Shown: piece after piece, positions 14,348 to 55,358 of the stretch
How positions within the stretch are numbered: position 1 is the stretch's first letter
How the letters are laid out: each line of letters starts with the position of its first letter
NCBI GenBank assembly: GCA_036245805.1
Contig: BTRK01000005.1
Location: 42,891,216-42,955,215 of the forward strand
DNA from: Pristionchus mayeri
Lineage: Eukaryota; Nematoda; Chromadorea; Rhabditida; Neodiplogasteridae
Length of the DNA stretch: 64,000 nt
Direction of reading: 5' to 3'
Position numbers and translations under genes: made by a program
Notes under the pieces: model-generated
Database searches by the model: none
What the model saw: the letters and a program-made list of their open reading frames with translations, nothing else
What the model was told of the DNA's origin: nothing

Positions 14348-14465
14348 CTATCAGGTCTAATCGATTAGGGATCGCCAATTTTTTGCGCTTCAGCGGGCAC
14401 AAACTAAATAGCAAAAAGCGACTCAGGAGCCTACACTTACTACATTCGCTCACCTAGAAACAATA

Positions 14466-24784: not shown

Positions 24785-24818
24785 TACACTTAGTGAGTAC
24801 TGTTGCACTCACTAAGTG
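24785..24818. repeat. Short hairpin
   Basis: ACACTTAGTGAGT and its complement ACTCACTAAGTGT flank an 8-base loop. Mirrored in the right arm near 54739-54772. Another inverted pair, GTCGGATGAGAAC and GTTCTCATCCGAC, lies at 24872-24884 and 24923-24935. Confidence 0.75.
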
Positions 24819-25354
24819 TTTATAAAATATTAATCAATATATTGCGGCTGAAAGCATGAATTGACACCAGGTCGGATGAGAACTAAGAAATCATGCCGCC
24901 TTTGTATATCATGACGTCATGTTCTCATCCGACATAGTGCACACGAATTGGATGCAACCATTTGATCTGTTCAACCTAACACAACCGGTTGTAATAAGAC
25001 TTCAACCAACTGAATTCGACGAGATGACGAACAAGGAAGAATCGAAATACATTTCGAGTTTAAAAATTCCATCACTGCATTCGCGCACGATTTTTGCGAG
25101 TTTCAAACCAACTCGCACACCCATGAAACTTGTGCTTCGCGAAATCATAAATAGGCCTTGGCTTATCAGGAAAGAAATGCACGGACAGCTTTAGAGCATC
25201 AATAAAACAATTCAAAATAATTAAGTGGTAACTAGCAAAAGCAGCTTTTAAAAATGAGCTCACCTCTGGAAGAAGTTGTTCTCGTTGACGGACGATGCGA
25301 GCACTCCCTCGTTAGGACGAAGTGTCAGCTCTACAGAAGTCGGACAAATATCGA

Positions 25355-27632: not shown

Positions 27633-28160
27633 ATCTACAAAGCCACCATAATCTTCTAATGTATCTAAATTTTTCAAATGTGTCAGAACATATTTCAAAT
27701 CATAAAGTTACAGCAGAACTTCAGGGAAACTCTGAATCCACACAGAGAAATTCAGCCCCATCTCATCGGGGTTTCGAACAATCTTAATAATCCCCACACA
27801 CGAATGACAGTCAATACATGAGCATGAACATGAGGCTATCCGCTTTACCATTTAAAAATCAGCGATATTCGAATCTGTAACAATTAGAACATCAGAGTTT
27901 CGAGAGTCTTACTTCAGCATGAACGCTCTATGCGATTCAATGAGCAGATAGTACTTTCGCAAAATAACCATTATGATTCTAACGTCAACTCCACTACTTT
28001 TAAGTTGTGATTCATTAAAATGTGATGGTCGAAAAGATGTTCGATTATAAGAAATTTATAATCCGTAAAATAATCCTTCTAGCTTTCTATAGTTATGTTC
28101 GAATATTTTCATATATGCCCATTGTATTCTTATAATCTCCCGTATACATTTCTACCTTAC

Positions 28161-30086
28161 TCCATTCACCAGATTCGATCCTCGGGTGCCGAAGTTGACG
28201 GTATCTGTGATCTTCTTTTCAGTGTATCCCCTCCATTCGCCTGCGGCGAATGCATCCCTCTCTATTGTATCTTTTTCTAGAAATAGATGTACACCGTTCC
28301 TCTCTTTGTAATGTGAATAAAGTGTTCTGCATCGCGCCCTGTCGTGTACCGTGCCATATCTCCACCACCCTACATGGTTTGGCAAGGAACGAATCCTTGG
28401 CAGTCTCTCGATGCAACGATGAAAAGAGGCATCTCGGAAGAGAGACGATATGTCACAAGAACTTGTCGGAATTGAAATAGTATGACGTTTCGGAAGTCCC
28501 ATAATGATCGAGTATTTATCTAGTGAAACAAACCGATACTATCAAAATCGCCGAGATAAAATCCAGTGACTCATATCCCATAGTCGCAGCGTCAATCCCC
28601 CATGCCAATACCGACAAACTTTCGATATTTTGTGTTTGACGACTACAAATAGGCAATCAAAAAATTTCGGTCTATGACTCTCTCAATAGTAATTCTTTAT
28701 CTATCCCAACGGTGCTGCCTGTGCCATCAACATTGCTAACAATGAAGACGATTTAACTGAACAAAAGTATCTTCAGTGGAGAATTATGACTGCACTAATG
28801 CTCTATCAGGCTGACCTAGCAGATTGAGTCAATTTCTTGGCGTCAGGCAGACGAACAAAACACTACAATGAAAGGTGGAATGGAAAGGTGGGTCAAAGCG
28901 GTCAGCTGAAAACAATCTCTATGTGTTTGTCCTTTTAACCAATCCTACTATATTTGGCGAACTCGTCCTTGATAAGCAATGTATTCATGCCGGACTCCAC
29001 ATCCGCCATCAAATGCCGCAATGGTGAAACACTACACTAGACAATCGATGAACTAACGGATCATAAGGCAGAAGTATGACCGTGCTGCATGGTTTGCACC
29101 GCACACTGCAGTACCTCGAACTACAGCACACCACCTGCACCCTACCTTTCCCTGAATAGGAACCATTCCTTGCTCTACAGTGCCCAAAACACACCTTCTG
29201 CCGAACCTTGAACCACTCCCTCCTGCGCTGAGAAAGTCTTCGATGTGCACAATTATTGTTTGTTTTATGTCTAGAGCCAAGCATGCAAGTGCAGCTGAAC
29301 CGAAATGCATATCTCACATTCGCAGCGACAATCCTCCAAATAAATATTTGAGCAAAGTTAGATTTGTGCACAATAATAAATAGTTGTTAGCTTTAGAGTA
29401 GTCGCTAACAATTAACATAACAATATTAAATATTCACTAAATACACCGGCGATGTGTACTCCATCGACGTTTCTGACAAAGTGGTCGCTGGGGCCGATCT
29501 GGTAGTGGCGCAGCGTCTCAGTCACAATCAGATGACCTCCAAGGGAAGACGGGATTATTTATATATACAGAAAAAAAATCAAGAATCATCTTTCAATTAT
29601 TTGTTGAGTCAAAATTTCAAAGATGATGCTTGATGCCAAAATACCCGGTGCATCGGAGCCGCTTCCATGGGATACTAATCTGAACGCGCTGTTATGTTAA
29701 TTATTTCCAGAGACTTATTTGCCAAAAAATAATATTACACAGCAATCGCAGTGATGTGGTTGTAAGAACTGTGAAAGGTCGCCTTCAAGAATTGATGACG
29801 TAATTTCCAACTTACAACTTGTTAGGGAGCTTTTATGAAATCGTTGCTTATTTGAGAGGTTAGCCATTCCGGCCTGTGAAATTGATGGTTCATTAAGAAT
29901 TCAATATCGGGCTAAGTATTGAAGCAACAATGGTTCATCCATCATGGTCGGTAAAAATATAATCCCTCCCCTCTCCACTCACTCACATCCCAGAACTCCA
30001 ACATATTGGAGGGGTTGATGCCGAATTCGATTGGGGACGTTGGTGGAGAGAGTGACGAAGTGATTCGCCACGTCGGCAGATGAGAC
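28161..30086 (-). pseudogene. Shuffled GPI fragments (left-arm copy)
   Basis: Mirror image of 49503-51396, described there. From high to low coordinates: 30086-29985 (ADVANHFVTLSTN and EFGINPSNMLEFWD), 29540-29450 (VTETLRHYQIGPSDHFVRN), 29117-29012 (LLPYDPLVHRLSSVVFHHCG) and 28355-28161 (AAGEWRGYTEKKITDTVNFG). All are conserved GPI blocks but not in GPI order, so this is not one collinear gene. A 32-bp block near 29315-29350 is missing from the right arm. Confidence 0.72.
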
Positions 30087-30289
30087 GCCCTGAGAGATAT
30101 GATGAATACATAGACTTTTTCACACGACAAATCGAATCATTGCGAAAAACAAATTACGCAAAACTGATAGTATATTTACGCAAACGCAACATGGTGACCA
30201 AATATGTATGGTGGTGACCAAATAAATATTAAAAACTTTAACGAATTGAATTACGATAAGTGAAACAAGACTCGAGGATCTAGAGAATG

Positions 30290-30400
30290 ACGCGAAGGAG
30301 AATTAATGCAACATGCGGAGAACACCAGACACCAGGTGAAGTCAGGCTGTAGAGATAATTTATCAAAACTAGTCAAGTAGGGTGAGTCAATATCTTGCTT
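30290..30400 (+). repeat. Recurrent exon-like module
   Basis: Reads ENTRHQVKSGCRDNLSKLVK then a stop. Another copy of the KSGCT-LIEQ block. Mirrored on the minus strand at 49189-49299. Confidence 0.35.
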
Positions 30401-30539
30401 GACAGCCATACGAAAACAATATAACGTGGTTTATGAAAGACAAAAAAACATAATTTCGGGTTTCCAATGACTAGCTGAAATTTGAATTAGCTTTGGATTA
30501 CAGTGACTTTTTAAAAATGATCGATGAAAATATATATTA

Positions 30540-31597
30540 CACGGTGGCTGATAAATATTGCGCCACTTTTCTTGTTTCTCAATTTCCATTCTCTGTAGGC
30601 ACCATTGCATCAAATTTGGTAACTATGTTGGTAAGGGACAAAAGTTATTAGCCTATAAATATTATCTGGATTGTTCAAGTATTTCAAGAGTTATCACTTC
30701 TGAAATATTTTGTTTTGGAATTGGGACTTTTCTGGGCACATAAACGTATCTGATAGTTTATGCCGCCTTACAGCAAGGAATTACATACAGGACTCTTCCA
30801 TTTATTCCTAATAAGAACAACCATTTACACGTATAAATATGTGATCTATTATATTATGAGACTCGGAACTTTCTCAGAAATGCTTTAAAATTATTTCATT
30901 ATGAACGGCTCTCTATAAAAAATAATAATATTTCGAAGCCGCATTCTTCGAACACATTAGCTATTGGAATTGTTCTATTTTATGCATGATACTCCATCAT
31001 TCTTTATTGTGAAAATGCATTCCATTTGGTTGGGCATATTGATTCGGAACCAGAATAAGTTGCGAAATGCTGCGAAGCGCCGCTTTTAGCGATATTTTGA
31101 GGTGCCTACTTCTACCATTAATTCAATGTTTACATTCAATTTGATGCAACAATATTTCATAACTCGACTCTGTTAATAGCTATGCAACATTATACGGCGG
31201 TATCAACATTCAGAATAAGAAATTCCGAAAAGTGAGTTTTTTGCATATGCGTGACTGAAAGTCATCAAATTTATCTCTCGTTGTTTTCAGAGACCCTATA
31301 TCGCATTTGACAAGATTATCGCTTAGTGGAAGGGTTACTCTTCATATTCACCTCGGTTGCAATTTCGATGGACATTGAGATCATTTTATATATCGAAAAA
31401 TGTGAACGGCGCATTGAGTAAAAATGTAGACTACTTTTTGCCTCCATGCTAAGAGGTCAGTCGATACCATGAAGCCTGCGTCTAGTAATTGTTTTGCACG
31501 GTACTGATATATATTTAAACGCAATATGATAATTATCATTTTATTTGTTTGCGAGATATTATTCAAAAGGTGGACGCAATATTTATCAGCCACCCTG
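30540..31597. mobile_element. 1,058-bp non-autonomous TIR element, TA target
   Basis: TIRs CACGGTGGCTGATAAATATT (left) and CAGGGTGGCTGATAAATATT (right, complement) continue as GCG. TA flanks both ends (30538-30539, 31598-31599). No transposase frame is visible. TA duplication and TIR style suggest Tc1/mariner-related mobilisation. Mirrored at 47992-49049. Confidence 0.8.
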
Positions 31598-31663
31598 TAA
31601 ACCAATTATGCAATCATAATCCTCATTGCCGAATTTGCCTCTCTCAACTAGCCGAATGTCTAT

Positions 31664-31724
31664 CTCCTTTCGCCACATCTTTACTGCACTCACATTATCC
31701 GCCGAGTCGTAGATTGACTCTACA
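31664..31724 (-). pseudogene. UBC7-like exon 4b remnant (left arm)
   Basis: Reads DSADNVSAVKMWRKE on the minus strand, matching EPNDESTANVSAAKMWRE at 22286-22234 and the UBC7 family's SPANVDAAKMWRE. The rest of the UBC gene is not adjacent; the Harbinger element begins about 370 bases away at 32096. Mirrored at 47865-47925. Confidence 0.55.
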
Positions 31725-32340
31725 TCAAATCAAATTGAAACATGAAAAATGCTAGGGCTGGGGTACTATCGCAATTATCAATTCACTAAGTAACACCGAT
31801 GCAAAAACAATGTTCATGCAGCGACTTCAGCATTGAATACATCGTGGATAAATATGAATTATTCTTGAACTCAAGAATCAAGCACACATAATATTGCAAA
31901 TGCAGTGAACACTCCATTAAGCGACTACGCTGTAACCGCGAAATTCCTGGAGCTTCAAAAACCAATTGTAAACGAACAGACTTCATCGCCTCTTAATCGC
32001 CAATTATACCGTGCTTTCTCTGTATCACCTCTCCACCGTGCCCTTCAACTACCGTACCACTCATATCCGCTTTATATCCCTTCTCTAATGCGATGTTAAA
32101 AATCGCGCAAAGATCGGATCTTTGTCGAAAAGGGTGTTAAAAAAATTTGCAAAGATCGGATCTTTGTAACGAGTGGCATTTTATCCTACACGGAATACCC
32201 TGACGAATTGCTCTGGGTTACTGTAGATCTGGCCATTGAAGGCCGCCAGCTTCCGAGGCGATCTTTATCGATTTCCTTTGTTTCTTTCTCCTTTTCCGCG
32301 AAAATTTTAGGACAAGTGCTGCCCCCATTTTGATTGCCGG

Positions 32341-32935
32341 AATCATGTCCTTCTCGGTTTTACGCAACCCTGGCATGCTTCCCCTTGTGCCAACTAGCTA
32401 TTGCGTATAAATTACGTGGGTATCTACCAAATATCACGCGTGTTGCAGCACTCACGCGTGCTTCCGACGTGCGGAGAACCTTCTGCGAGGTCGTCAGCGG
32501 CTTCTCGTCGAGGAGCAAGCGGTGAGTACTCACTTATTTCCATCCTTTATATTTTTCTTTATTAAAATACTGTAAATATCGATGTCCTTCTCGGTTTTAC
32601 GCAACCCTGGCATGCTTCCCCTTGTGCCAACTAGCTATTGCGTATAAATTACGTGGGTATCTACCAAATATCACGCGTGTTGCAGCACTCACGCGTGCTT
32701 CCGACGTGCGGAGAACCTTCTGCGAGGTCGTCAGCGGCTTCTCGTCGAGGAGCAAGCGATGAGTACTCACTTATTTCCATCCTTTATATTTTTCTTTATT
32801 AAAATACTGTAAATATCGATGTCCTTCTCGGTTTTACGCATCCCTGGCATGCTTCCCCTTGTGCCAACTAGCTATTGCGTATAAATTACGTGGGTATCTA
32901 CCAAATATCACGCGTGTTGCAGTCATGAGTGCCAG
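32341..32935. repeat. 237-bp tandem repeat in Harbinger 5' region
   Basis: The block beginning TGTCCTTCTCGGTTTTACGC recurs at 32345, 32583 and 32820. Each full copy contains TATTGCGTATAAATTACGTG, a conserved upstream segment and a GTGAGTACT donor-like site, so it may hold the promoter and a non-coding first exon of the MADF gene. The right arm has one copy fewer (46905-47245). Confidence 0.85.
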
Positions 32936-33383
32936 AAAAACCGCTCATACATCGGAGGAAGGAGAAGATAATGGACTCGAAGTTCAACTAATTGGTGGTG
33001 TAAGTACTGACTTATTGCACTTTAAAAAAATGTTTGTTAATATCTTTGAACGCTCTATTTATACGATTTAAATAAATATTTTGAATTATGACACTTTTTT
33101 TCAGTGGAGGGACATTCCCGATGAGGTAATGAAGAAATTGATCGAGGAAATCGAAGTGACGGAGTGTTTATGGAAGAAGTCTAACGCTCTTTACAAGAAT
33201 GTGGCAGTGAAGGAGCGAATATGGAGGGAGTTGGAGGATCAGTTCGGCATAGAAAGTGAGTTGCGTTATTTTATAAGCTTAGTTGAATAACTCTGGCACT
33301 CTTTAGAAATATATAGCGAATATAATCTCTTAGAGTTGGTGAACTGTCGATAGTCCCTTTACTGACCACGTTTAAAGAATCGT

Positions 33384-33460
33384 TGGGTGGGAATCGAATC
33401 TGCATCATCTGATCGCTTTGGCAGCTGATATATCGCTGAGCTATGCTGTTTTCTACCCTC
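33384..33460 (-). repeat. tRNA-derived sequence in an intron
   Basis: Read on minus, about 77 bases contain an A-box-like TAGCTCAGCGATATATCAG and a B-box-like GATTCGATTCC at normal spacing, ending CCCACCC opposite a starting GGGTAG. The anticodon arm does not fold well, so it is a tRNA pseudogene or SINE head, not a confident tRNA. It sits in intron 2 of the MADF gene and is mirrored at 45877-45953. Confidence 0.45.
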
Positions 33461-34328
33461 TAGCGCTATGATCTTTGGAGGGTTGGCTAGGTCTATGACA
33501 GCGTCAAAAGTTCAAATTTGCTGACACTCCTTCTTTAAGCCGTAATCCACATGTAATGTCGTGTTATACGTAGCACCACTAATAACTTCGTTGATTTATG
33601 CATATTGGCGCATTCTTCAGGGGGCGTTGCTGCGAGCACTCTAAAGAGGCTGAAGCAAGCATTTGCTGCTTCAACCTCAAAAGATGACCTCCCGTCGGGA
33701 TCTGCTTGCCCATCTCCCAGAAGGAAGAAGGAATTCAAGTTCAAGGATAATCTTATGTTTCTGAAGAGTGTCGTACCTCAAACTAAGTGAGCATTTTGGA
33801 GTCATTCCTGGACGCATAAATTTAGATAATCACTTGTTATATTTCCAGCAAGCGGAAGTCGTCTACAGTTGCACAGCAGGACCAAGAAGATTGGGGAAGT
33901 TCCGATGAAGAAGTTGTCGGAATTCCAATCAAGAAAGAATTGAGTGAAGGAACAAAAAAAACGCGTGAGATTTTTTTTGTACAGTTTGTTTTGTTCTTTA
34001 GAAGGAATATTACAAATAAAGATAATCAGCATGCGATTTCTATTATTAGGGCGATCAATTATTTTGCAGTTACACACATCGGACCAATCATAGCCAAGGA
34101 GGGAGGAGAGCCTCTCGTAAAAACAAGCAGGATGAAGAAGCAGAAGAAGGATTCAAGTATCGAAGACCTGCTAAGTGAGAATTCCCATCAGATTGAAAGT
34201 GTAATGACATTGATTAGAAATAAGGAATCTTCATCATCCTCTCACACCGATATACATTCTAAACTAGATCAATGTTTATCTAGGATTCCTTCTAGATTCA
34301 TCGATGATTTTAAACTTGATGTTTATGC

Positions 34329-34455
34329 ACTCTCCTCTCGCCTCTCACTCTCCTCTCGCCTCTCACTCTCCTCTCGCCTCTCACTCTCCTCTCGCCTCTC
34401 ACTCTCCTCTCGCCTCTCACTCTCCTCTCGCCTCTCTCTCCTCTCGCCTCTCGTT
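34329..34455 (+). repeat. 18-bp tandem repeat at LINE 5' end
   Basis: About seven copies of ACTCTCCTCTCGCCTCTC form the first 125 bases of the element, followed by C/T-rich leader with initiator-like pyrimidine tracts to about 34700. Tandem 5' monomers act as promoters in some LINE families; here this is inference from position. Confidence 0.85.
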
Positions 34456-34702
34456 GCGATAGGACGCGCGCTTTTCTCTCTATCATTTAGCGCTAATTAC
34501 GGCTTATTAGCCTCTCTTCCTTCCGTCCTTCCTAATTCAAGCTTCTGACTCCCCCTACCTAGTGTATTCTACCCATTTTCATGCATTAATTCCCCTTAAT
34601 TAGCTCATAATTGTGTAACGTCTTATTTCCCGCCTCTTCCTCTCGTTTTCTCTCGCCCCTCTCCATCCCCTATACTCTCTCGCTCTCCCCCCTCTAGCTC
34701 AC

Positions 34703-35458
34703 GTGCACTCTCTCGGTACCATGTCCACCCCCACCCCCATCCTCTCCCTCCTCTCCACTCCCATCCCCCCTTTCCCCCTCCCCAACTCCGACGGTCGCAA
34801 GCGCCGCGCCACCCAGTCGGAGGAGGATTTCCGTGCTGCAGCCAAGACCCAGCTGGAGGCCGTCACCGACAAGCTGAGGGCATACCTCGACACGGAGTCT
34901 GAGCGTGCCTCTGACCCCCTCTACGTGGCTCTCGAGGCTTGTATTGAGGTGCTGTCGAATACTCTCGAGAGGCACCTGCAACCCTCCGAGAGTCCTGTGG
35001 AGGCGGAGAAGAGGGCACGCTCGATTGTGGTTGAGAACTTGGCTGAGTCGACTCATTCCCTCCCCAGTCAAAGAGTCGAGGCCGACTACGCCCACGTCAC
35101 TCGCTTCCTCGATCTCACCGGAATCGAAGTCCGTCCGGACACGGTCTTCCGGATGGGAGAGAGGAAGGAGGGACGACCCCGTCCTCTCAAGATCCTCCTT
35201 CCCCGCACCTCCTCGCAGAAGCTCCTTCTCACTCGCAGCAAGAAGATCACGGACCAGCGCGAGTACTCCTCACTGCGAATTCGCCCCTCCCTCTCAGAGA
35301 AGGAGAGGCATACGCAGTACGAGTTGAGGGAGAAGAAGCGCAAGTTGATTGAGGAAGGTAAGGGCATTTGGGTGATCTACGCTGGAGTTCTCATGAAGAA
35401 GGAAGAGGTACAGGCATTCAAGGCGAAGACAGCTAGCAAGGAGATGAAGGGAAACTAG
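34703..35458 (+). CDS. LINE ORF1 protein (251 aa)
   Basis: Probable nucleic-acid chaperone/coat protein of the retrotransposon particle. The N-terminus is proline-rich (about residues 1-28). Residues 30-125 are acidic, helical and likely to self-associate. Residues 128-235 hold an ORF1 RNA-binding-like block (TRFLDLTGIEVRPDTVFRMG, then RPLKILLP, then RKKLIEEGKGIWV-like Lys/Arg-rich end). No CCHC zinc knuckle is seen. A second in-frame ATG at 34721 has a better context (ACCATGT) and could be the real start. The stop TAG at 35456-35458 is immediately preceded by the slippery heptamer GGGAAAC. Confidence 0.8.
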   Translation: MHSLGTMSTPTPILSLLSTPIPPFPLPNSDGRKRRATQSEEDFRAAAKTQLEAVTDKLRAYLDTESERASDPLYVALEACIEVLSNTLERHLQPSESPVEAEKRARSIVVENLAESTHSLPSQRVEADYAHVTRFLDLTGIEVRPDTVFRMGERKEGRPRPLKILLPRTSSQKLLLTRSKKITDQREYSSLRIRPSLSEKERHTQYELREKKRKLIEEGKGIWVIYAGVLMKKEEVQAFKAKTASKEMKGN

Positions 35459-38385
35459 GATCCCCCTGCAGACCTCCCCCTATCCTCTCCTCGCTTTCTT
35501 CAATAACTCCCCCTTCCTCGACCCAAACTGTTTATCCCAGCTTAGTTTCTCAATACGATTCCCCCTCCACTCCTTCCTCTGATATTCTGCCAAAGATTTC
35601 TTGTCTCTATTACAACGCCCGATCATTAGTCAATAAGCTACCATATTTTCACTCTATTCTAAAAGTTGAACAACCAGACATTGTGTTTATCACCGAATCA
35701 TGGCTGACCTCTCGTATTCCTACCTCATTGATAATCGCTGATCTACCATATCATGCTATTAGACGTGATCGCTCAAATGGCCGTGGAGGCGGTACACTTA
35801 TTGTACTTCGTGACCATTTTCACTACTCTATCCTCGGTTCCATCCATAGTAGTCTTGAATCCCTCTCCATTGATTTGCTCACTTCCTCGTCCTCTTTCAT
35901 TCGTCTTTGTGTTGTGTACCGACCTCCTAGCTACAGTACGACCCAGACAGAAAACCTCGTTGATGGTCTCTCAGACCTTCTTACCACCAGTCCCCACCCA
36001 ATCATATTCATAGGAGATTTCAATAGCGACATCATTTCCAGTGCCATTCCGGCCACAGAACAATCACTTCACTCCTTCGTTTCTACTTCCGACCTCAGCC
36101 ATCTAATCCGTAGTCCCACTAGGATAGATCGATGCATTGATTGGCTACTTGCTAGTGATTCATCCATAGTACACAACCCCTCTGTAATTCCCTCCTTTCC
36201 TACATCCGATCATTTTGGTATATCCTTCTCAATTGATTCAAGATGCCTCCCTCCCGCTCAATCGTTAGTTAGAGATTTCGCACGCACCAACTATGACCAC
36301 CTCTCGTCCTTCCTTCTCACCTTCGACTGGTTTACAACATTTTCACAAGCTCCTGACCCTGAGAACATGTATTCTAACTTTGTCTCTGTAATCCACCACG
36401 CGATTGATCTTTTCGTACCGTATCACTGCCCTAAGCCTGCTACCCATTCTTATCCCCCTCATATCCGAAAGCTAATTAAACACCGAAATTCTCTGTTCAC
36501 AAAGTATAATTTACTCTCAATTCGCCTTCAATACGAGAAGTGCAGTAGAGATCCATTATTCCAAATTAAAAAATGGAACCAATTTTGCGAACATAAAAAA
36601 CTAAAAAACACTAAAGATCTCTACCGTCACATCCGTACCCTTACCCAACCGAAGCCATCCATCCCCAAACAACTTATTGATTCCTCTGGAAATATCGCAA
36701 CTAGTACCTTAGACATAGCAAATTCCCTTGCATCCCGATTTGCATCCCACTTCACACTTGATGACGGATTATTACCATCCATTCCCTCCCACCCCTTTTC
36801 CTCATATCTAAGAAATGTATCTTTCTTCCCCCATGACGTGTATAAGGCTTTAAAGCAGCTCTCACCATCATGCTCTACGGGCCATGATAACATTCCTCAG
36901 ATTGTCTTTCGTAAATGTGCACATGCCCTCTCCCTCCCCCTGTGCGATATTTTCAATATTAGTATGGAAACCGGCACTGTCCCATCACTATGGAAATTCT
37001 CACTCATTACCCCAATCCCCAAACCAAACAAGAATCCCCAAGTACCCGACTCTTATCGCCCTATCTCCATACTGTCTCCCGCCTCTAAAACAATGGAACG
37101 CCTTGTCAAGCATAAGCTTGCCCCTTACCTTTACCGCTCCAATATCATTCCTAATTACCAACATGGTTTTCGATCCGGTGCCTCTGTTCTTACCAACCTC
37201 GTAGACTGTGAAAATGACTGGACCTTCGCTCATTCCCGTAAAGAGCAAACTGATGTTATTTACCTCGACTTCTCTCGTGCATTTGACACCGTCCCCTTTC
37301 CCAAGCTTATCTCTAAATGCTTGCATTATGGTATTAATGGTAACCTTCTAAATTGGATCTCTGATTTTGTAACGGATAGGCACTTCTCCGTAAGGTTAGG
37401 TACTACCGTATCTAAGTCCTTCCCTGTTCTCTCCGGCGTACCACAAGGATCTGTACTAGGGCCTATTCTATTCTCTCTTTATATATCTGATATTACATAT
37501 GTCATTGCTCCCTTCCCCGATGTGTTTGTGAAAGCATATGCAGATGACATTAAGATTTATGTTTCCTATTCCAGTAAAAATAAAGCCTCTCGCACTGCCC
37601 AATTACAGTATGCCCTAGATGCTATCTATTCATGGACTGTATCCAATCAATTATCTCTCTCCGAATCTAAATGCACACATCTCCACATAGGTTCTTCTCT
37701 TGCCCCTCATTATCTCATTAATAATGTTATCCTCGAGCAAGTCCCTCAACAACGCGATCTCGGCGTCCAAGTACTGCCCACCCTAAATAACTCTGCCAGT
37801 ATTGATGATCGTGTAAAAAAAGCCACCACTGTCATGCATATTATGCTTCGTGCTGTATCCGTTAATGATCCCACTATCCTTATCAAATGCTTTAAAACAT
37901 ATGTTCTCCCTCACATTGAATTCGCTTGCCCCTTCTGGAACCCTCATATCAAGAAACAGAGTCAGAAGCTTGAGAAAATACAAGAGAAATTCACTCGTAT
38001 TCTATACTATAGATGCTTTCCATCTCCATCATATCCTCTTGGTCTTCCCTCCTACTCTCAACGTCTGTCCTTCCTCGGTCTTCAAGCGCTTTTTGAGAGG
38101 AGAGTCACTTATGATCTAGTCCTGGCCCGTAGGATCATGTATGGAGACACCATACTCGATAGAAGTAAATTTTTCCTGTTTGCTCCCCTAAGAGAAAGGA
38201 CCAACAACTTTGGAATCTATATTGAGAAAACCAGATCCACACCTCGATATCATTGTTTTTCTCGTAGAGTTGCTAGGATTTTAAACGCTCTCCCCACCCA
38301 TGTATTGTCATCCCCCAGCATCCCTGTCTTCAAGAAGAGATTGATAACTCTAGAATTTGATTTTCGGAAATATATTTTCCAATAG
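35437..38385 (+). CDS. LINE ORF2: endonuclease and reverse transcriptase, no AUG start
   Basis: The frame is open from just after a stop at 35434-35436 to 38385. An APE-type endonuclease domain begins near 35597 (YYNARSLVNKL, ITESWL, YRPP, GDFN at about 36013, SDHF). The reverse transcriptase spans about 36870-37700, with LDFSRAFD, SGVPQGSVLGPILF and the catalytic YADD at 37537-37548, followed by a C-terminal domain with HIEFACPFWNPH. The frame has no ATG before 36367, which lies after the endonuclease domain. The frame is -1 relative to ORF1. I therefore infer synthesis as an ORF1-ORF2 fusion of about 1,230 residues by -1 frameshifting. The domain assignment is sure; the mode of translation is inferred. 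Confidence 0.92.
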   Translation, partial: QGDEGKLGSPCRPPPILSSLSSITPPSSTQTVYPSLVSQYDSPSTPSSDILPKISCLYYNARSLVNKLPYFHSILKVEQPDIVFITESWLTSRIPTSLIIADLPYHAIRRDRSNGRGGGTLIVLRDHFHYSILGSIHSSLESLSIDLLTSSSSFIRLCVVYRPPSYSTTQTENLVDGLSDLLTTSPHPIIFIGDFNSDIISSAIPATEQSLHSFVSTSDLSHLIRSPTRIDRCIDWLLASDSSIVHNPSVIPSFPTSDHFGISFSIDSRCLPPAQSLVRDFARTNYDHLSSFLLTFDWFTTFSQAPDPENMYSNFVSVIHHAIDLFVPYHCPKPATHSYPPHIRKLIKHRNSLFTKYNLLSIRLQYEKCSRDPLFQIKKWNQFCEHKKLKNTKDLYRHIRTLTQPKPSIPKQLIDSSGNIATSTLDIANSLASRFASHFTLDDGLLPSIPSHPFSSYLRNVSFFPHDVYKALKQLSPSCSTGHDNIPQIVFRKCAHALSLPLCDIFNISMETGTVPSLWKFSLITPIPKPNKNPQVPDSYRPISILSPASKTMERLVKHKLAPYLYRSNIIPNYQHGFRSGASVLTNLVDCENDWTFAHSRKEQTDVIYLDFSRAFDTVPFPKLISKCLHYGINGNLLNWISDFVTDRHFSVRLGTTVSKSFPVLSGVPQGSVLGPILFSLYISDITYVIAPFPDVFVKAYADDIKIYVSYSSKNKASRTAQLQYALDAIYSWTVSNQLSLSESKCTHLHIGSSLAPHYLINNVILEQVPQQRDLGVQVLPTLNNSASIDDRVKKATTVMHIMLRAVSVNDPTILIKCFKTYVLPHIEFACPFWNPHIKKQSQKLEKIQEKFTRILYYRCFPSPSYPLGLPSYSQRLSFLGLQALFERRVTYDLVLARRIMYGDTILDRSKFFLFAPLRERTNNFGIYIEKTRSTPRYHCFSRRVARILNALPTHVLSSPSIPVFKKRLITLEFDFRKYIFQ
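35449..35455 (+). promoter_or_regulatory. Putative -1 ribosomal frameshift site GGGAAAC
   Basis: In the ORF1 frame the codons read AAG GGA AAC TAG, so the heptamer G GGA AAC has the X XXY YYZ form in the correct phase and touches the ORF1 stop. Slipping back one base gives GGG AAA CTA and enters ORF2, whose frame opens only 13 bases upstream. The overlap of the two frames is just 22 bases. The downstream 40 bases are C-rich with GGATCC and CTGCAG; I do not see an obvious strong stem-loop. Confidence 0.6.
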
Positions 38386-39021
38386 TATTCCCTCCTTCCA
38401 CTACCTTACCACATTCCTTCATTCTCACCCCCTCCCCCCTTTAGAGATCCCCTGACGCTGGATCTCGGAGCAGAGTCTACCTGGTCTACCTCGAGTGCCT
38501 CCTCCTCGATAAAACTCCCCATCAGAACAGACGAAGACAGATGAGACCAGCCGATTGGATCTTCGCATTTTACGATTGCACCTCCTTCCCCCCCATTCCC
38601 CCCTTCCTATCGTATTCGACCTCAGTGTGAGGAGAGTCAACTCTCTTGTATCATAACACATAAGTAATTATTCGTCTTTCGTTGCGCCGCCGAGCGTAGA
38701 TAAATATATATATATGCTAGTCTCACTTCTTTAACTAAGAAATATTGTGAGCCCGCCCCTTCAATGTACCCCTCCCCTGCTCTTTCTTCCCAATTCCCAT
38801 TTCCATATCCACCGTTTGGCCATCACCCTAATCCTTACCCTCCTATTTACCAGAATGCCGCTTACCCTCCACCGAATCAAGCCCCATCAGCTAACCCGCC
38901 TCAAACATTTGATAATCCACTCCATTATCTGCCTTGATTGTTGGTATTGTCTGCTAAGAGCAAATTTCTCGTTGTAAATTGAAAGTTGTTTTGTGTCTGA
39001 ACAATTTCGATAAACATGAAT

Positions 39022-40164
39022 TCATTTATTCTGAATGGGAAATTCTGAATTGAAATAAGTGAACAAGTAATCTATTTGCTCTGATTCATAAAATGAACAA
39101 TTTGCATATTTTGGACTATTCAGAGGGTAATCCACAGTATCGATCATTAAATTGTGAACAATGGCAAGGGAATATATGAGATTAGTACAATTTTGAATTT
39201 CTAAGTCAAGAGGGCGTAACAATAGTCTGAACTTATTCTTGAGCATTCCAAATGCATTTTCTACAACACGACGAGAGCGAGAAATTCGATAGTTGAAAAC
39301 ATTGATGTTGGCCACTTTAACGGGGTCGGGGTTCGGATTAGACAACGTATACTTTAATTCAGGTAATGGTTTGATTATGTGTATGCTACTGGGGAAAGCG
39401 TTGTCCGCTAAAAAAAATGAATGCACTGCCTTAGATCCTAGAAGTGGGATGATGGGAGGAGGGAGATTGAGAGAATTAGATATAAGCGACTTATAGAAGT
39501 TGGTAGATTTGAAAATGTTGGAATCATGCATACTCCCTGCAGATCCAACATCTAAATACAAGAATCTACCAAAACTGTCAGACACTGCCATACCAACTAG
39601 AGAAAAGTAAGATTTGTAATTAAAATATAGAGAACCACTATTAGGGGGACATTTTAAAGTGAAGTGACATCCATCAATACAGCCAAAAGCAGGGCATTGG
39701 GTACGAATAACAAACGCTTGCCTAATGAGAAGCCAATCAGATACAGAATGAGGAAGGGCAATAGCATGTGAAAGTTTGGAAGAAATTTTAGTAGAAATAA
39801 CACAAAAGTAATGGCTTAAGTCACGCAAATTCACACCGAAAGTCCTAGATATAGCACGAATATGCATACCTGACTGGCAATATATGAAAGATAAATAAAG
39901 AAAATGGACATCGGAAAGAGATTTATGCTTTCTAGGGGAAAGAGGAGAAATTGAGGAAGCGATTTGATCGAATACTTGAATAGATACTCCTGTAGACTCA
40001 CGAAATAAATGAGGAAATAGCCTATTCTCACTATAACTAAGCTTGAAACGGGCAACTTGGTATTTTCGCATGATCATGATACACCTCCTTTCATCCCTTC
40101 TCTTCTTATCTAGCAAGAGTAGTTTCCTCCGCTGCAGAAGAAGAAGAAGTAGAACTCGATTCAT
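39022..40164 (-). CDS. PIF/Harbinger transposase (DDE_Tnp_4, HARBI1-like), left copy
   Basis: 380 codons, identical in sequence to the right-arm copy at 43562-44704. The DDE nuclease residues are Asp164 (FGCIDG), Asp254 (FLADNAF) and Glu302 (VVENAFGML), all in typical family context; NYKSYFSLVGMAVSD supports the fold. The catalytic triad is complete. The first 12 residues (LLLLLL) are probably intronic: CTTCTTCTTCTGCAG before CGGAGG is a good acceptor, and upstream a frame begins MMDEHESSSTSSSS-like. With the MADF partner it would excise and insert the element at TTA/TAA sites. Confidence 0.9.
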   Translation of the reverse strand: MNRVLLLLLLQRRKLLLLDKKRRDERRCIMIMRKYQVARFKLSYSENRLFPHLFRESTGVSIQVFDQIASSISPLSPRKHKSLSDVHFLYLSFIYCQSGMHIRAISRTFGVNLRDLSHYFCVISTKISSKLSHAIALPHSVSDWLLIRQAFVIRTQCPAFGCIDGCHFTLKCPPNSGSLYFNYKSYFSLVGMAVSDSFGRFLYLDVGSAGSMHDSNIFKSTNFYKSLISNSLNLPPPIIPLLGSKAVHSFFLADNAFPSSIHIIKPLPELKYTLSNPNPDPVKVANINVFNYRISRSRRVVENAFGMLKNKFRLLLRPLDLEIQNCTNLIYSLAIVHNLMIDTVDYPLNSPKYANCSFYESEQIDYLFTYFNSEFPIQNK

Positions 40165-40437
40165 GTTCGTCCATCATCAATTTCTTGTTGCTTCTGCAAG
40201 ATATAGCAATAAATAATATTCAGCTAACAGCTAATAAGGTACAATAGGTCGTGAGTACAACGAGCACTATGCCAAGGATGATTAAAACTCAGAAGGAGAA
40301 CTATATTTGCAGTCATAGGTGATCACGCCGCCGGCGACAGGGGGTGCTGCGCATAGACGCACCGTGCGTCTGTGCGCACGCATGGTCATGGTAAAAATCG
40401 ATGGTAGGTTGTGGTAAGTCAAGACTAACTACCGTAC

Positions 40438-40862
40438 CCAATCGATAGTACAGTACCCCTGATACCGTATACCTCTACCGTAACCCCGAATATCGCAAAC
40501 TAACTTTATTTTTTAAAAAAGTCTTGGTATCGTGCGCAATCGATTCTACAGTACCCAAGTAACATTTTTTTTCTAAATATGTCAATCATTTTTCGAATAA
40601 TCCAAAATTGATCATAAACTGATTATACAGTAATATTTTAGGTTACTTTAAAATTTTTTTTTTATGCACGATTTTGGATTTTTAGAAAAAAATGTTTGAT
40701 CCAAGGAACTGGATCTGACCCGAGGAACTGGGTTACGGTAGTTACTTGGGTACTGTAGAATCGATTGCGCACGATACCAAGACTTTTTAAAAATAAAGTT
40801 AGTTTGCGATAATCGGGGATTACGGTAGTGGTATACGGTATCAGGGGGTACTGTACTATTAG
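40438..40862. mobile_element. 425-bp foldback (MITE) nested in Harbinger
   Basis: Arms 40441-40563 and 40738-40860 are inverted and share CAGTACCC, ACCGTATACC, CGCAAACTAACTTTATTTTT and GTGCGCAATCGATTCTACAG. It interrupts the conserved subterminal GTGGGTATCTACC sequence of the Harbinger element. Mirrored at 42866-43285, so it predates the palindrome. Confidence 0.85.
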
Positions 40863-41481
40863 GTAGATACCCACGTAATTTATACGCAATAGCTAGTTGG
40901 CACAAGGGGAAGCATGCCAGGGTTGCGTAAAACCGAGAAGGACATCGATATTTAGAGTATTTTAATAAAGAAAAATATAAAGGATGGAAATAAGTGAGTA
41001 CTCACCGCTTGCTCCTCGAAAGGAAGTCGCGGCGCGTTTCGAGTGCAAGGTAGAGCAGCTTAAAGATAATATTAGGCTAATCAATGAACGTGGAAGCAAT
41101 TAGATATAGTGCGTAAGCCAATAAACCATAATTTAAGGTGGATATCACAGCAACAGCAAGTAAAACTGTCCAAATCCGCAACAACTTAAAAGTTGAGTAC
41201 TTTAAACTATGATTCCGGCAATCAAAATGGGGGCAGCACTTGTCCTAGTCAGTGGGATCATAGTAAGAACTCGCGTGAACAAAAATTTTCGCGGAAAAGG
41301 AGAAAGAAACAAAGGAAATCGATAAAGATCGCCTCGGAAGCTGGCGGCCTTCAATGGCCAGATCTACAGTAATCCAGAGCAATTCGTAAGGGTATTCCGT
41401 GTAGGATAAAATGCCACTCATTAAAAAGATCCGATCTTTGCAAATTTTTTTAACACCCTTTTCGACAAAGATCCGATCTTT

Positions 41482-42244: not shown

Positions 42245-42865
42245 AAAGATCGGATCTTTGTCGAAAAGGGTGTTAAAAAAATTTGCAAAGATCGGATCTT
42301 TTTAATGAGTGGCATTTTATCCTACACGGAATACCCTTACGAATTGCTCTGGATTACTGTAGATCTGGCCATTGAAGGCCGCCAGCTTCCGAGGCGATCT
42401 TTATCGATTTCCTTTGTTTCTTTCTCCTTTTCCGCGAAAATTTTTGTTCACGCGAGTTCTTACTATGATCCCACTGACTAGGACAAGTGCTGCCCCCATT
42501 TTGATTGCCGGAATCATAGTTTAAAGTACTCAACTTTTAAGTTGTTGCGGATTTGGACAGTTTTACTTGCTGTTGCTGTGATATCCACCTTAAATTATGG
42601 TTTATTGGCTTACGCACTATATCTAATTGCTTCCACGTTCATTGATTAGCCTAATATTATCTTTAAGCTGCTCTACCTTGCACTCGAAACGCGCCGCGAC
42701 TTCCTTTCGAGGAGCAAGCGGTGAGTACTCACTTATTTCCATCCTTTATATTTTTCTTTATTAAAATACTCTAAATATCGATGTCCTTCTCGGTTTTACG
42801 CAACCCTGGCATGCTTCCCCTTGTGCCAACTAGCTATTGCGTATAAATTACGTGGGTATCTACCT

Positions 42866-43285
42866 AATAGTACAGTACCCCCTGATACCGTATACCACTA
42901 CCGTAATCCCCGATTATCGCAAACTAACTTTATTTTTAAAAAGTCTTGGTATCGTGCGCAATCGATTCTACAGTACCCAAGTAACTACCGTAACCCAGTT
43001 CCTCGGGTCAGATCCAGTTCCTTGGATCAAACATTTTTTTCTAAAAATCCAAAATCGTGCATAAAAAAAAAATTTTAAAGTAACCTAAAATATTACTGTA
43101 TAATCAGTTTATGATCAATTTTGGATTATTCGAAAAATGATTGACATATTTAGAAAAAAAATGTTACTTGGGTACTGTAGAATCGATTGCGCACGATACC
43201 AAGACTTTTTTAAAAAATAAAGTTAGTTTGCGATATTCGGGGTTACGGTAGAGGTATACGGTATCAGGGGTACTGTACTATCGAT
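42866..43285. mobile_element. Nested foldback (MITE), right-arm copy
   Basis: Mirror of 40438-40862 with the same paired arms (42866-42988 and 43163-43285). Confidence 0.85.
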
Positions 43286-43561
43286 TGGGTACGGTAGTTA
43301 GTCTTGACTTACCACAACCTACCATCGATTTTTACCATGACCATGCGTGCGCACAGACGCACGGTGCGTCTATGCGCAGCACCCCCTGTCGCCGGCGGCG
43401 TGATCACCTATGACTGCAAATATAGTTCTCCTTCTGAGTTTTAATCATCCTTGGCATAGTGCTCGTTGTACTCACGACCTATTGTACCTTATTAGCTGTT
43501 AGCTGAATATTATTTATTGCTATATCTTGCAGAAGCAACAAGAAATTGATGATGGACGAAC

Positions 43562-44704
43562 ATGAATCGAGTTCTACTTCTTCTTCTTCTGCAGCGGAGG
43601 AAACTACTCTTGCTAGATAAGAAGAGAAGGGATGAAAGGAGGTGTATCATGATCATGCGAAAATACCAAGTTGCCCGTTTCAAGCTTAGTTATAGTGAGA
43701 ATAGGCTATTTCCTCATTTATTTCGTGAGTCTACAGGAGTATCTATTCAAGTATTCGATCAAATCGCTTCCTCAATTTCTCCTCTTTCCCCTAGAAAGCA
43801 TAAATCTCTTTCCGATGTCCATTTTCTTTATTTATCTTTCATATATTGCCAGTCAGGTATGCATATTCGTGCTATATCTAGGACTTTCGGTGTGAATTTG
43901 CGTGACTTAAGCCATTACTTTTGTGTTATTTCTACTAAAATTTCTTCCAAACTTTCACATGCTATTGCCCTTCCTCATTCTGTATCTGATTGGCTTCTCA
44001 TTAGGCAAGCGTTTGTTATTCGTACCCAATGCCCTGCTTTTGGCTGTATTGATGGATGTCACTTCACTTTAAAATGTCCCCCTAATAGTGGTTCTCTATA
44101 TTTTAATTACAAATCTTACTTTTCTCTAGTTGGTATGGCAGTGTCTGACAGTTTTGGTAGATTCTTGTATTTAGATGTTGGATCTGCAGGGAGTATGCAT
44201 GATTCCAACATTTTCAAATCTACCAACTTCTATAAGTCGCTTATATCTAATTCTCTCAATCTCCCTCCTCCCATCATCCCACTTCTAGGATCTAAGGCAG
44301 TGCATTCATTTTTTTTAGCGGACAACGCTTTCCCCAGTAGCATACACATAATCAAACCATTACCTGAATTAAAGTATACGTTGTCTAATCCGAACCCCGA
44401 CCCCGTTAAAGTGGCCAACATCAATGTTTTCAACTATCGAATTTCTCGCTCTCGTCGTGTTGTAGAAAATGCATTTGGAATGCTCAAGAATAAGTTCAGA
44501 CTATTGTTACGCCCTCTTGACTTAGAAATTCAAAATTGTACTAATCTCATATATTCCCTTGCCATTGTTCACAATTTAATGATCGATACTGTGGATTACC
44601 CTCTGAATAGTCCAAAATATGCAAATTGTTCATTTTATGAATCAGAGCAAATAGATTACTTGTTCACTTATTTCAATTCAGAATTTCCCATTCAGAATAA
44701 ATGA
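43562..44704 (+). CDS. PIF/Harbinger transposase, right copy
   Basis: Same 380-codon frame as the left copy, with Asp164, Asp254 and Glu302 present and no residue difference noticed. The gene points towards the MADF gene, and the two stop codons are 84 bases apart (44704 and 44789), sharing a short 3' region. Probable first exon and intron lie at 43552-43594, as in the left copy. The product is expected to be nuclear and to require the MADF protein for import and DNA targeting, as known for Harbinger elements. Confidence 0.9.
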   Translation: MNRVLLLLLLQRRKLLLLDKKRRDERRCIMIMRKYQVARFKLSYSENRLFPHLFRESTGVSIQVFDQIASSISPLSPRKHKSLSDVHFLYLSFIYCQSGMHIRAISRTFGVNLRDLSHYFCVISTKISSKLSHAIALPHSVSDWLLIRQAFVIRTQCPAFGCIDGCHFTLKCPPNSGSLYFNYKSYFSLVGMAVSDSFGRFLYLDVGSAGSMHDSNIFKSTNFYKSLISNSLNLPPPIIPLLGSKAVHSFFLADNAFPSSIHIIKPLPELKYTLSNPNPDPVKVANINVFNYRISRSRRVVENAFGMLKNKFRLLLRPLDLEIQNCTNLIYSLAIVHNLMIDTVDYPLNSPKYANCSFYESEQIDYLFTYFNSEFPIQNK

Positions 44705-44788
44705 ATTCATGTTTATCGAAATTGTTCAGACACAAAACAACTTTCAATTTACAACGAGAAATTTGCTCTTAGCAGACAATACCAACAA

Positions 44789-46901
44789 TCAAGGCAGATA
44801 ATGGAGTGGATTATCAAATGTTTGAGGCGGGTTAGCTGATGGGGCTTGATTCGGTGGAGGGTAAGCGGCATTCTGGTAAATAGGAGGGTAAGGATTAGGG
44901 TGATGGCCAAACGGTGGATATGGAAATGGGAATTGGGAAGAAAGAGCAGGGGAGGGGTACATTGAAGGGGCGGGCTCACAATATTTCTTAGTTAAAGAAG
45001 TGAGACTAGCATAAACATCAAGTTTAAAATCATCGATGAATCTAGAAGGAATCCTAGATAAACATTGATCTAGTTTAGAATGTATATCGGTGTGAGAGGA
45101 TGATGAAGATTCCTTATTTCTAATCAATGTCATTACACTTTCAATCTGATGGGAATTCTCACTTAGCAGGTCTTCGATACTTGAATCCTTCTTCTGCTTC
45201 TTCATCCTGCTTGTTTTTACGAGAGGCTCTCCTCCCTCCTTGGCTATGATTGGTCCGATGTGTGTAACTGCAAAATAATTGATCGCCCTAATAATAGAAA
45301 TCGCATGCTGATTATCTTTATTTGTAATATTCCTTCTAAAGAACAAAACAAACTGTACAAAAAAAATCTCACGCGTTTTTTTTGTTCCTTCACTCAATTC
45401 TTTCTTGATTGGAATTCCGACAACTTCTTCATCGGAACTTCCCCAATCTTCTTGGTCCTGCTGTGCAACTGTAGACGACTTCCGCTTGCTGGAAATATAA
45501 CAAGTGATTATCTAAATTTATGCGTCCAGGAATGACTCCAAAATGCTCACTTAGTTTGAGGTACGACACTCTTCAGAAACATAAGATTATCCTTGAACTT
45601 GAATTCCTTCTTCCTTCTGGGAGATGGGCAAGCAGATCCCGACGGGAGGTCATCTTTTGAGGTTGAAGCAGCAAATGCTTGCTTCAGCCTCTTTAGAGTG
45701 CTCGCAGCAACGCCCCCTGAAGAATGCGCCAATATGCATAAATCAACGAAGTTATTAGTGGTGCTACGTATAACACGACATTACATGTGGATTACGGCTT
45801 AAAGAAGGAGTGTCAGCAAATTTGAACTTTTGACGCTGTCATAGACCTAGCCAACCCTCCAAAGATCATAGCGCTAGAGGGTAGAAAACAGCATAGCTCA
45901 GCGATATATCAGCTGCCAAAGCGATCAGATGATGCAGATTCGATTCCCACCCAACGATTCTTTAAACGTGGTCAGTAAAGGGACTATCGACAGTTCACCA
46001 ACTCTAAGAGATTATATTCGCTATATATTTCTAAAGAGTGCCAGAGTTATTCAACTAAGCTTATAAAATAACGCAACTCACTTTCTATGCCGAACTGATC
46101 CTCCAACTCCCTCCATATTCGCTCCTTCACTGCCACATTCTTGTAAAGAGCGTTAGACTTCTTCCATAAACACTCCGTCACTTCGATTTCCTCGATCAAT
46201 TTCTTCATTACCTCATCGGGAATGTCCCTCCACTGAAAAAAAGTGTCATAATTCGAAATATTTATTTAAATCGTATAAATCCGTCCGTCCGTCCGTGGAA
46301 TCCGTCCGTGCTCCTCCTCTTGAAGTGTACCAAGTAGGCGATATTCTCCATTCTAGCGCTCGTGATGGGCGGTCGTCCCTGACCCCGCTCTTTTCCGACC
46401 TAGTTTGGGGAATCCTCTCCCGTCAGCTTGGGCAACCCGGAGAGTATCGCCTACTTGGTACACTTCAAGAGGAGGAGCACGGACGGATTCCCATCGTCTC
46501 GAGTGATCTACCGTCAAGAAAGCCCCGCTGTCTGCGTTGTGAGTTCCTAACCGGCGCAAGTCAGGTGTTCGGCGGCAGGATGATCTACTTCGATGCTCAA
46601 CGGAGATTCGTCACGATCGTCCCTACAGTTGACCAGAGAAGCCAAAGAAGATCCCATCCCTTGACCTAACGACGCTCTGAGACCGAAGATCCCCATTCCC
46701 TCCACACTGAAGTCACCCTCCTGCAGGACCATTGTGCCTGACGTCAGGATAAATATGATGATGATAAATAGAGCGTTCAAAGATATTAACAAACATTTTT
46801 TTAAAGTGCAACAAGTCAGTACTTACACCACCAATTAGTTGAACTTCGAGTCCATTATCTTCTCCTTCCTCCGATGTATGAGCGGTTTTTCTGGCACTCA
46901 T
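44789..46901 (-). CDS. Harbinger MADF (Myb/SANT-like) DNA-binding protein, intact copy
   Basis: Predicted exons: 46901-46827, 46232-46082, 45716-45551, 45488-45373 and 45267-44789, total 987 bases, 328 residues; every junction is GT-AG and stays in frame, with acceptors TTTTTTTCAG, TTCTTCAG, ATTTCCAG and TTTTGCAG. The MADF domain spans about residues 26-128: LIEEIEVTECLW, YKNVAVKERIW and, later, RRKKEFKFKDNLMFL. Residues 130-220 are acidic then Lys-rich (possible nuclear signal KKQKK); the C-terminal 80 residues are Pro/Tyr/Asn-rich. In Harbinger elements this partner binds transposon ends and escorts the transposase. Intron 1 contains a 483-bp insertion absent from the left arm. Confidence 0.85.
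45877..45953 (+). repeat. tRNA-derived sequence, right-arm copy
   Basis: Mirror of 33384-33460, here on the plus strand with the same A-box and B-box-like motifs; intronic in the MADF gene. Confidence 0.45.
46281..46763 (+). mobile_element. 483-bp retroposon-like insertion private to the right arm
   Basis: A 6-base duplication ATAAAT (46275-46280 and 46764-46769) brackets it, and the left arm at 33068-33073 is the exact empty site. It begins with CCGT repeats and ends with an ATGATGATG-rich tail, as retroposed SINE-like or 5'-truncated LINE elements do. Internally, a segment at 46304-46348 starting CCGTGCTCCTCCTC is inverted at 46436-46484, giving a stem with an 87-base loop. No convincing open frame. 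Confidence 0.85.
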
Positions 46902-47864
46902 GACTGCAACACGCGTGATATTTGGTAGATACCCACGTAATTTATACGCAATAGCTAGTTGGCACAAGGGGAAGCATGCCAGGGATGCGTAAAACCGAGA
47001 AGGACATCGATATTTACAGTATTTTAATAAAGAAAAATATAAAGGATGGAAATAAGTGAGTACTCACCGCTTGCTCCTCGACGAGAAGCCGCTGACGACC
47101 TCGCAGAAGGTTCTCCGCACGTCGGAAGCACGCGTGAGTGCTGCAACACGCGTGATATTTGGTAGATACCCACGTAATTTATACGCAATAGCTAGTTGGC
47201 ACAAGGGGAAGCATGCCAGGGTTGCGTAAAACCGAGAAGGACATGATTCCGGCAATCAAAATGGGGGCAGCACTTGTCCTAAAATTTTCGCGGAAAAGGA
47301 GAAAGAAACAAAGGAAATCGATAAAGATCGCCTCGGAAGCTGGCGGCCTTCAATGGCCAGATCTACAGTAACCCAGAGCAATTCGTCAGGGTATTCCGTG
47401 TAGGATAAAATGCCACTCGTTACAAAGATCCGATCTTTGCAAATTTTTTTAACACCCTTTTCGACAAAGATCCGATCTTTGCGCGATTTTTAACATCGCA
47501 TTAGAGAAGGGATATAAAGCGGATATGAGTGGTACGGTAGTTGAAGGGCACGGTGGAGAGGTGATACAGAGAAAGCACGGTATAATTGGCGATTAAGAGG
47601 CGATGAAGTCTGTTCGTTTACAATTGGTTTTTGAAGCTCCAGGAATTTCGCGGTTACAGCGTAGTCACTTAATGGAGTGTTCACTGCATTTGCAATATTA
47701 TGTGTGCTTGATTCTTGAGTTCAAGAATAATTCATATTTATCCACGATGTATTCAATGCTGAAGTCGCTGCATGAACATTGTTTTTGCATCGGTGTTACT
47801 TAGTGAATTGATAATTGCGATAGTACCCCAGCCCTAGCATTTTTTATGTTTCAATTTGATTTGA

Positions 47865-47925
47865 TGTAGAGTCAATCTACGACTCGGCGGATAATGTGAG
47901 TGCAGTAAAGATGTGGCGAAAGGAG
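47865..47925 (+). pseudogene. UBC7-like exon 4b remnant (right arm)
   Basis: Mirror of 31664-31724: DSADNVSAVKMWRKE. Upstream at 47500-47570 is a possible GPI-like block (GEWRGYTEK relative, frameshifted), too degraded to call. Confidence 0.5.
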
Positions 47926-47991
47926 ATAGACATTCGGCTAGTTGAGAGAGGCAAATTCGGCAATGAGGATTATGATTGCATAATTGGTTTA

Positions 47992-54202: not shown

Positions 54203-54224
54203 TCGATATTTGTCCGACTTCTGT

Positions 54225-55220: not shown

Positions 55221-55358
55221 GAGAGCAGCAGCGAGAGGTATGGTATGAGCTGAAGAAAGGAAGAATAAACGGTGAATTCGAGCTGTCGTACTTATCCACT
55301 ACTAAACAATATAATTAGGATAAGTGAAGGAAGTCAATGACGAACAGTAAAAGATAAT

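Follow-up and report, generated by a model that had tools for sequence, protein, structure and literature searches.

How long interspersed nuclear elements (LINEs) with two open reading frames (ORFs) make their second protein has long been asked, and the usual answer is reinitiation. The question is raised anew by a full-length LINE insertion, of a family here termed A, in a 64,000-nt stretch of Pristionchus mayeri DNA (contig BTRK01000005.1 of assembly GCA_036245805.1, forward-strand positions 42,891,216–42,955,215; this whole stretch is hereafter called the window). Its ORF2, encoding an endonuclease (EN) and a reverse transcriptase (RT), lies in the -1 frame relative to ORF1 and has no ATG ahead of the endonuclease. 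The sequence record argues for another answer than the usual one, as the letters of a site at the end of ORF1 have changed between families while a slippery pattern at the stop codon was kept. We consider it likely that in family-A LINEs programmed -1 frameshifting, at a GGGAAAC heptamer abutting the ORF1 stop, fuses EN-RT to the ORF1 product.

The ORF1/ORF2 junction of family A

ORF1 ends in AAG GGA AAC TAG. The original prediction had described an in-phase GGGAAAC touching this stop and an ORF2 in the -1 frame whose first ATG follows the endonuclease; both were confirmed on the sequence, the ATG lying beyond the Pfam match to the endonuclease (Table 1). Because the -1 frame is closed by a TAG at 35434 and opens at 35437, entry into ORF2 by a -1 step is possible only from 35437 to the TAG at 35456. 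This shift window comprises 12 nt plus the heptamer, and GGGAAAC is the sole canonical in-phase heptamer within it. Of the features expected of a programmed -1 frameshift site, three are found here: an in-phase X XXY YYZ heptamer, a 0 frame closed by the adjacent TAG next to a -1 frame open for 982 codons, and conservation of the site beyond neutral drift, its pattern being kept across families with changed letters. A SART1/L1-type arrangement would have the AUG of ORF2 on or close to the ORF1 stop; such an AUG is missing in family A and occurs in families C, E, F and G alone.

Simultaneous slippage of both tRNAs is established for heptamers of the X XXY YYZ type. At the family-A site, the tRNAs on GGA and AAC would slip together to GGG and AAA, after which CTA (Leu) would be decoded to yield ...KGN-LGS...; the junction, predicted earlier as ...KGN/KL... 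in a protein of about 1,230 residues, is corrected to ...MKGN-LGSPCRP... and a fusion of 245 + 976 = 1,221 residues. In the available passages of the literature, G_GGA_AAC is counted among the most shift-prone heptamers (PMC5009743) and GGGAAAC is listed for the retroviral gag-pro sites of Mason-Pfizer monkey virus (MPMV), simian retrovirus 1 (SRV-1), jaagsiekte sheep retrovirus (JSRV), feline immunodeficiency virus (FIV), caprine arthritis encephalitis virus (CAEV) and HERV-K10 (PMC3835772). The same passages give UUUAAAC for arteriviruses (PMC5009743; PMC3835772).

Conservation and turnover of the heptamer

Further loci were sought across the same P. mayeri assembly (290.8 Mb), where a protein search gave 48 matches to ORF2. 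Thirty loci were retrieved, and in all 25 whose alignment spans the junction the heptamer is GGGAAAC, followed by TAG in 24 cases and by TAA in one. A pattern search that specified the flanks, with no constraint on the ten bases comprising heptamer and stop, returned GGGAAAC at 51 of 51 places (49 TAG, 2 TAA), nine of which carry changes in the specified flanks. As these copies are young and 97–100% alike over the element, their identity at the heptamer is weak evidence taken alone. An ATG between heptamer and endonuclease is absent from 44 of the 46 family-A loci, or 33 of 35 when distinct places are counted; L045 and L054, with an ORF2 broken before the endonuclease, were left out of this judgement, so that the predicted lack of an ORF2 start holds for every family-A copy that was judged and fails in families C, E, F and G.

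More telling are the divergent families of the same genome. Families B (L033, L044, L046) and C (L025, L037, L041, L051, L056, L063) have GGGAAAC TAG within other flanking codons, family D (L032, L069, L070) combines GGGAAAC with TGA and a different, longer ORF1 tail, and family E (L064–L068) reads GGGAAAA TAG. In a distant clade, found via a 48%-identical protein, the heptamer and stop are TTTAAAC TAG in family F (L072) and CCCAAAC TAG in F2 and F3 (L073–L075, L082–L086); one further copy (L071) has an earlier ORF1 stop. The ORF1 tails of the families are unrelated in length and sequence and end in GN, GK, LN or PN, and a canonical heptamer stands at the ORF1 end in eight of ten related families. 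The persistence of the pattern X XXA AAZ at the same spot, with changing letters and changing ORF1 residues, appears to us the strongest support for frameshifting. Upstream of the heptamer, the shift window measures 12 nt in A, 15 in B and 0 in F3 and F3b; since in the latter two a -1-frame stop lies directly 5' and the 0-frame stop directly 3' of the heptamer, their shift window is the heptamer itself. The heptamer, its phase and its abutment to the stop, which the original prediction had proposed to follow amid drifting flanks, were thus kept both in the young copies and across divergent families.

Pattern searches gave a similar picture. A search for the A-type junction, which required most of the heptamer, found 75 places, 74 with GGGAAA(A/C) and one with CGGAAAC. 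With the first three bases set to Y-Y-N, the F-clade pattern found 94 places, which divide into 65 TTT, 28 CCC and one TGT, with no mixed Y triplets; when heptamer and stop were left free, the 24 of 65 matches with letters given comprised 23 TTTAAAC and one TGTAAAC.

As to chance, when the open ORF1 frames of 12 representatives were scanned without their terminal site, 2 of 2,230 in-phase positions held a canonical heptamer, as did 14 of 6,249 positions over the ORF1 and ORF2 stretches of 13 representatives; the terminal position is canonical in 10 of the 12, or 11 in the set of 13. Because the families are related, no exact probability is claimed for this recurrence; the G, T and C triplets would each need separate triple replacements.

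Relatives of ORF1 were also found in P. pacificus and in other records, some of them contaminated. Nine of ten distinct foreign ORF1 C-termini include, within the last three residues, a pair encodable by a slippery heptamer, against a background of 140 of 2,538 per site (5.5%); this comparison concerns protein only, and its rule was made after the ends had been seen. It drew on 16 foreign ORF1 proteins, of which six were left out, four (P0122, P0125, P0126, P0127) sharing the C-terminus of P0120 and two (P0119, P0128) having none. LINE-related proteins known as protein only are P0001, P0010, P0114–P0118, P0123, P0124 and P0129. Three proteins filed under the fungus Asterophora parasitica (P0115, P0117, P0124) are close relatives of the Pristionchus LINE ORF1, which suggests that this genome record is contaminated by a nematode. 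A viral contig collection contained no relative of the LINE; a genome contig collection gave three loci of Holosporales metagenome-assembled genomes, with 24–26% identity over about 200 RT residues, which were not used.

Routes to the second protein

Several observations weigh against frameshifting. Two of the ten families have a non-canonical site: family G (L076, L087) ends in TCG TTA AAG TAG, i.e., GTTAAAG, and family H (L077, L078, L080, L081) in TCG GTA AAC TGC TAG, i.e., GGTAAAC one codon before the stop (L079, also of family H, has a shifted ORF1). In families C, E, F and G an in-frame ATG precedes the endonuclease, 44, 23, 9 and 23 codons past the heptamer start, respectively. One of the ten foreign ORF1 ends, that of P0118 (...PSK), misfits the rule of the encodable pair. 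Local folding found no structure in family A (112 nt from the heptamer, z = -0.86), none that stands out in seven families folded over 100 nt from the stop (z = -1.54 to 2.10) and no pairs in the consensus of seven sequences of the A clade. The linker between heptamer and endonuclease lacks clear constraint at the protein level, with ratios of nonsynonymous to synonymous change (pN/pS) of 0 to 1.52 in 12 pairs, and was not used as evidence; at the start of the endonuclease pN/pS is 0.07–0.51 in 11 of the 12 pairs, the twelfth having no synonymous change. The P-site shifts of families G and H would resemble G_UU(A) of equine arteritis virus and G_GU of cardioviruses, which are named as P-site variants in the available part of one review of such sites (PMC5009743).

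The absence of a clear downstream stem-loop, already noted by eye in the original prediction, was borne out by folding throughout the A clade. Since folding predicted no structure after the heptamer there, the slip would either be inefficient or be helped by the stop codon itself. In the step that follows, the stop codon would move into the A site, and the ribosome would then wait for the release factor; an adjacent stop of this kind could stand in for the pseudoknot, as could the mere fact that little ORF2 protein is needed. Inefficient slippage would fit an enzyme required in small numbers; through its ORF1 part, the fusion would be brought into the particle of ORF1 protein and RNA, much as Gag-Pol is brought in by Gag. 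In the F clade, a 13-pair consensus stem with one compensatory pair begins 6 nt after the heptamer; three of its seven rows are near-identical, and its z values are unremarkable (-1.25 to 1.04 in five sequences), so that the stem is no more than a weak lead. For two sequences of the F clade, the folded stretch comprised less than 100 nt downstream (e.g., L074 with 88 nt). A downstream C-rich stretch binding a poly(C)-binding protein, a role known from porcine reproductive and respiratory syndrome virus, was considered as stimulator and dropped, as the F clade lacks such a stretch.

Could ORF2 be made without a shift? For SART1, the available passages of PMC5972666 describe termination after ORF1 with reinitiation at AUG or near-AUG codons, a route also proposed there for LINE-1, and the in-frame ATGs of families C, E, F and G, 9–44 codons after the heptamer, would serve it. 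Where family F has its ATG, the codon is ACG in F2 and F3, in which it could act as a weak start, and also in some F copies; in family A, a CTG lies four codons ahead of the motif SCLYYN. However, no ATG lies between the heptamer and the first endonuclease motif in A, B, D, H, F2 and F3 (in F2 and F3 it comes 34 codons in, past that motif), and the first ATG of family A comes after the endonuclease altogether. From its opening to codon 10 past the heptamer, the ORF2 frame of family A holds neither an AUG nor a one-base variant of it; reinitiation would therefore leave unmade the conserved Cys-Arg-Pro, which is common to families A–E, G and H. It would also leave unexplained why a slippery heptamer with changing letters sits in the last ORF1 codons, and we regard reinitiation as an unlikely source of ORF2. 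The claim that the endonuclease is reached only by frameshifting holds for family A as far as AUG starts go, a non-AUG start or splicing being compatible with the sequence; in the four of the ten families where an in-frame ATG precedes the endonuclease, a route other than frameshifting is conceivable.

Two further explanations would make the heptamer incidental or keep it for other reasons. Splicing could remove the ORF1 stop and join the two frames, and three predicted Pristionchus gene models (P0006, P0011, P0018) do unite ORF1-like and ORF2-like pieces in one protein. Yet no junction-spliced copy is present among the 51 places, where the pattern would partly miss such copies, nor among the 25 of 30 loci aligned across the junction, and the conservation of the heptamer would go unexplained, which makes splicing very improbable. 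The joined gene models, for their part, hide the frame change. The heptamer might instead be kept solely by the overlap of two frames whose proteins both need these residues; in families A–E, the ORF2 frame reads G-K-(L/I) and later C-R-P, and an overlap puts constraint on both frames. The encoded residues vary, however (GN, GK, LN or PN in ORF1; GK, FK or PK in ORF2), whereas the homopolymer triplet that precedes AAA persists, and the ORF2 frame of F3 and F3b, open only from the heptamer onward, would without a shift code for nothing upstream. This is the least probable of the explanations considered.

Frameshifting at the ORF1 stop, in turn, has parallels in known systems. The family-A junction resembles the retroviral gag-pro sites with GGGAAAC in its heptamer, its phase and the -1 enzyme ORF that follows an RNA-binding structural ORF, and differs from them in that the stop abuts the heptamer and the host element is a LINE; in the retroviruses, a short spacer and then a pseudoknot follow the site, unlike in the A clade, where no structure was found. 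For the Dictyostelium TRE elements, LINE-type elements as well, -1 frameshifting from ORF1 to ORF2 is stated in the available passage of PMC5911963, which gives no heptamer, whereas the Pristionchus LINEs document heptamer turnover across families. Recoding has been proposed in other non-LTR (long terminal repeat) elements, too: HeT-A of Drosophila needs a frameshift for its gag, and +1 frameshifting or reinitiation is suggested for Paramecium LINE groups (PMC5009743; PMC5405496, in the parts available); the former lies within gag and the latter is +1, neither being a -1 heptamer at the stop between ORF1 and ORF2. SART1 and mammalian LINE-1 share with family A the two ORFs, an ORF1p-like first protein and a second one with EN and RT, but their ORF2 starts at or near its own AUG, as described in the available part of PMC5972666, and family A has none before the endonuclease. 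In the open-access literature, most subscription papers being outside this search, we found no LINE described as having a slippery heptamer where ORF1 meets ORF2. While -1 frameshifting for a LINE ORF2 is already known from Dictyostelium, the heptamer at the junction and the turnover of its letters appear to be new.

We give about even chances to the wider proposal that a nematode LINE clade has long used retrovirus-style -1 frameshifting and swapped GGG, TTT and CCC heptamers, with the stop in the A site as a stimulator replacing the pseudoknot and an ORF1p-EN-RT fusion that enters the ORF1p particle in the manner of Gag-Pol. Were this so, the same dosage switch would have arisen by convergence in LINEs and retroviruses, and a stop adjacent to the heptamer, with no pseudoknot, would offer an informative example of a minimal frameshift signal. 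As Pristionchus worms can be cultured and young copies are many, the proposal is directly testable.

The insertion and its surroundings

The element is an APE-type (apurinic/apyrimidinic endonuclease) non-LTR retrotransposon, i.e., a LINE: its ORF2 matches PF03372/PF14529 (APE-like endonuclease) and PF00078 (reverse transcriptase) above cut-off, self-comparison found no terminal repeat in the element, and its insertion site is otherwise intact. It may belong to the CR1 clade. CR1 LINEs are described as prominent in P. pacificus in the available part of PMC9297572.

Table 1. Coordinates, within the window, of the family-A LINE, its junction and its empty insertion site
Feature	Position	Strand	Basis
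Full-length LINE insertion, family A	34328..38712	+	Copies elsewhere in genome and empty site
5'-terminal tandem array, 18-bp unit (CACTCTCCTCTCGCCTCT) repeated about seven times	34328..34452	+	Tandem repeat analysis
ORF1, 245 aa	34721..35458	+	Open reading frame; predicted fold
-1-frame TAG, 5' limit of shift window	35434..35436	+	
ORF2 (endonuclease and reverse transcriptase), open for 982 codons in the -1 frame relative to ORF1	35437..38385	+	
Slippery heptamer, 0 frame G GGA AAC, -1 frame GGG AAA C	35449..35455	+	
ORF1 stop TAG, abutting heptamer	35456..35458	+	
TGC AGA CCT (Cys-Arg-Pro), ORF2 frame, six codons past heptamer start	35467..35475	+	
Endonuclease (Exo_endo_phos) match, ORF2 residues 59-259	35611..36213	+	Pfam
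First ATG of ORF2 frame	36367..36369	+	
Reverse transcriptase (RVT_1) match	37015..37740	+	Pfam
Empty insertion site in other inverted-repeat arm	45009..45013	-	

Pfam gave no recognised domain in ORF1; its predicted structure consists of a helix, an RNA recognition motif (RRM) and a C-terminal domain, with human LINE-1 ORF1p as best match, so that by its predicted fold ORF1 is L1-ORF1p-like in each of these parts. Genomic copies align from about 34328–34436 through 38704–38716, which mark the ends of the LINE. Because the alignments of other copies break inside the 18-bp array at the 5' end, the number of units probably varies between copies; such an array recalls the monomers found in rodent L1 promoters. 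At 14465–14524 (minus strand), 60 nt that match the 3' end of the LINE at 98% represent a strongly 5'-truncated insertion.

The empty counterpart of the insertion lies within the same window at 43926–46036 (minus strand), with flanks identical for more than 1 kb on each side and TATG shared at the junction. It is part of a giant inverted repeat (23384–41481 and 42245–56173; main blocks 99.6–100% identical, centre of about 760 bp), of which only one arm contains the LINE and which is either a real palindrome or an assembly artefact. Inside an arm of this repeat, a 383-codon open frame at 39022–40173 (minus strand) matches the transposase DDE_Tnp_4 (E = 9.9e-26).

Rfam gave no match anywhere in the window. 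Positions 1–5245 are occupied by a long GA-type repeat tract, nearly purine-only and with a GC skew of up to 0.97, and tandem arrays with units of 64 bp and 237 bp are located at 56083–56644 and 32345–32922, respectively.

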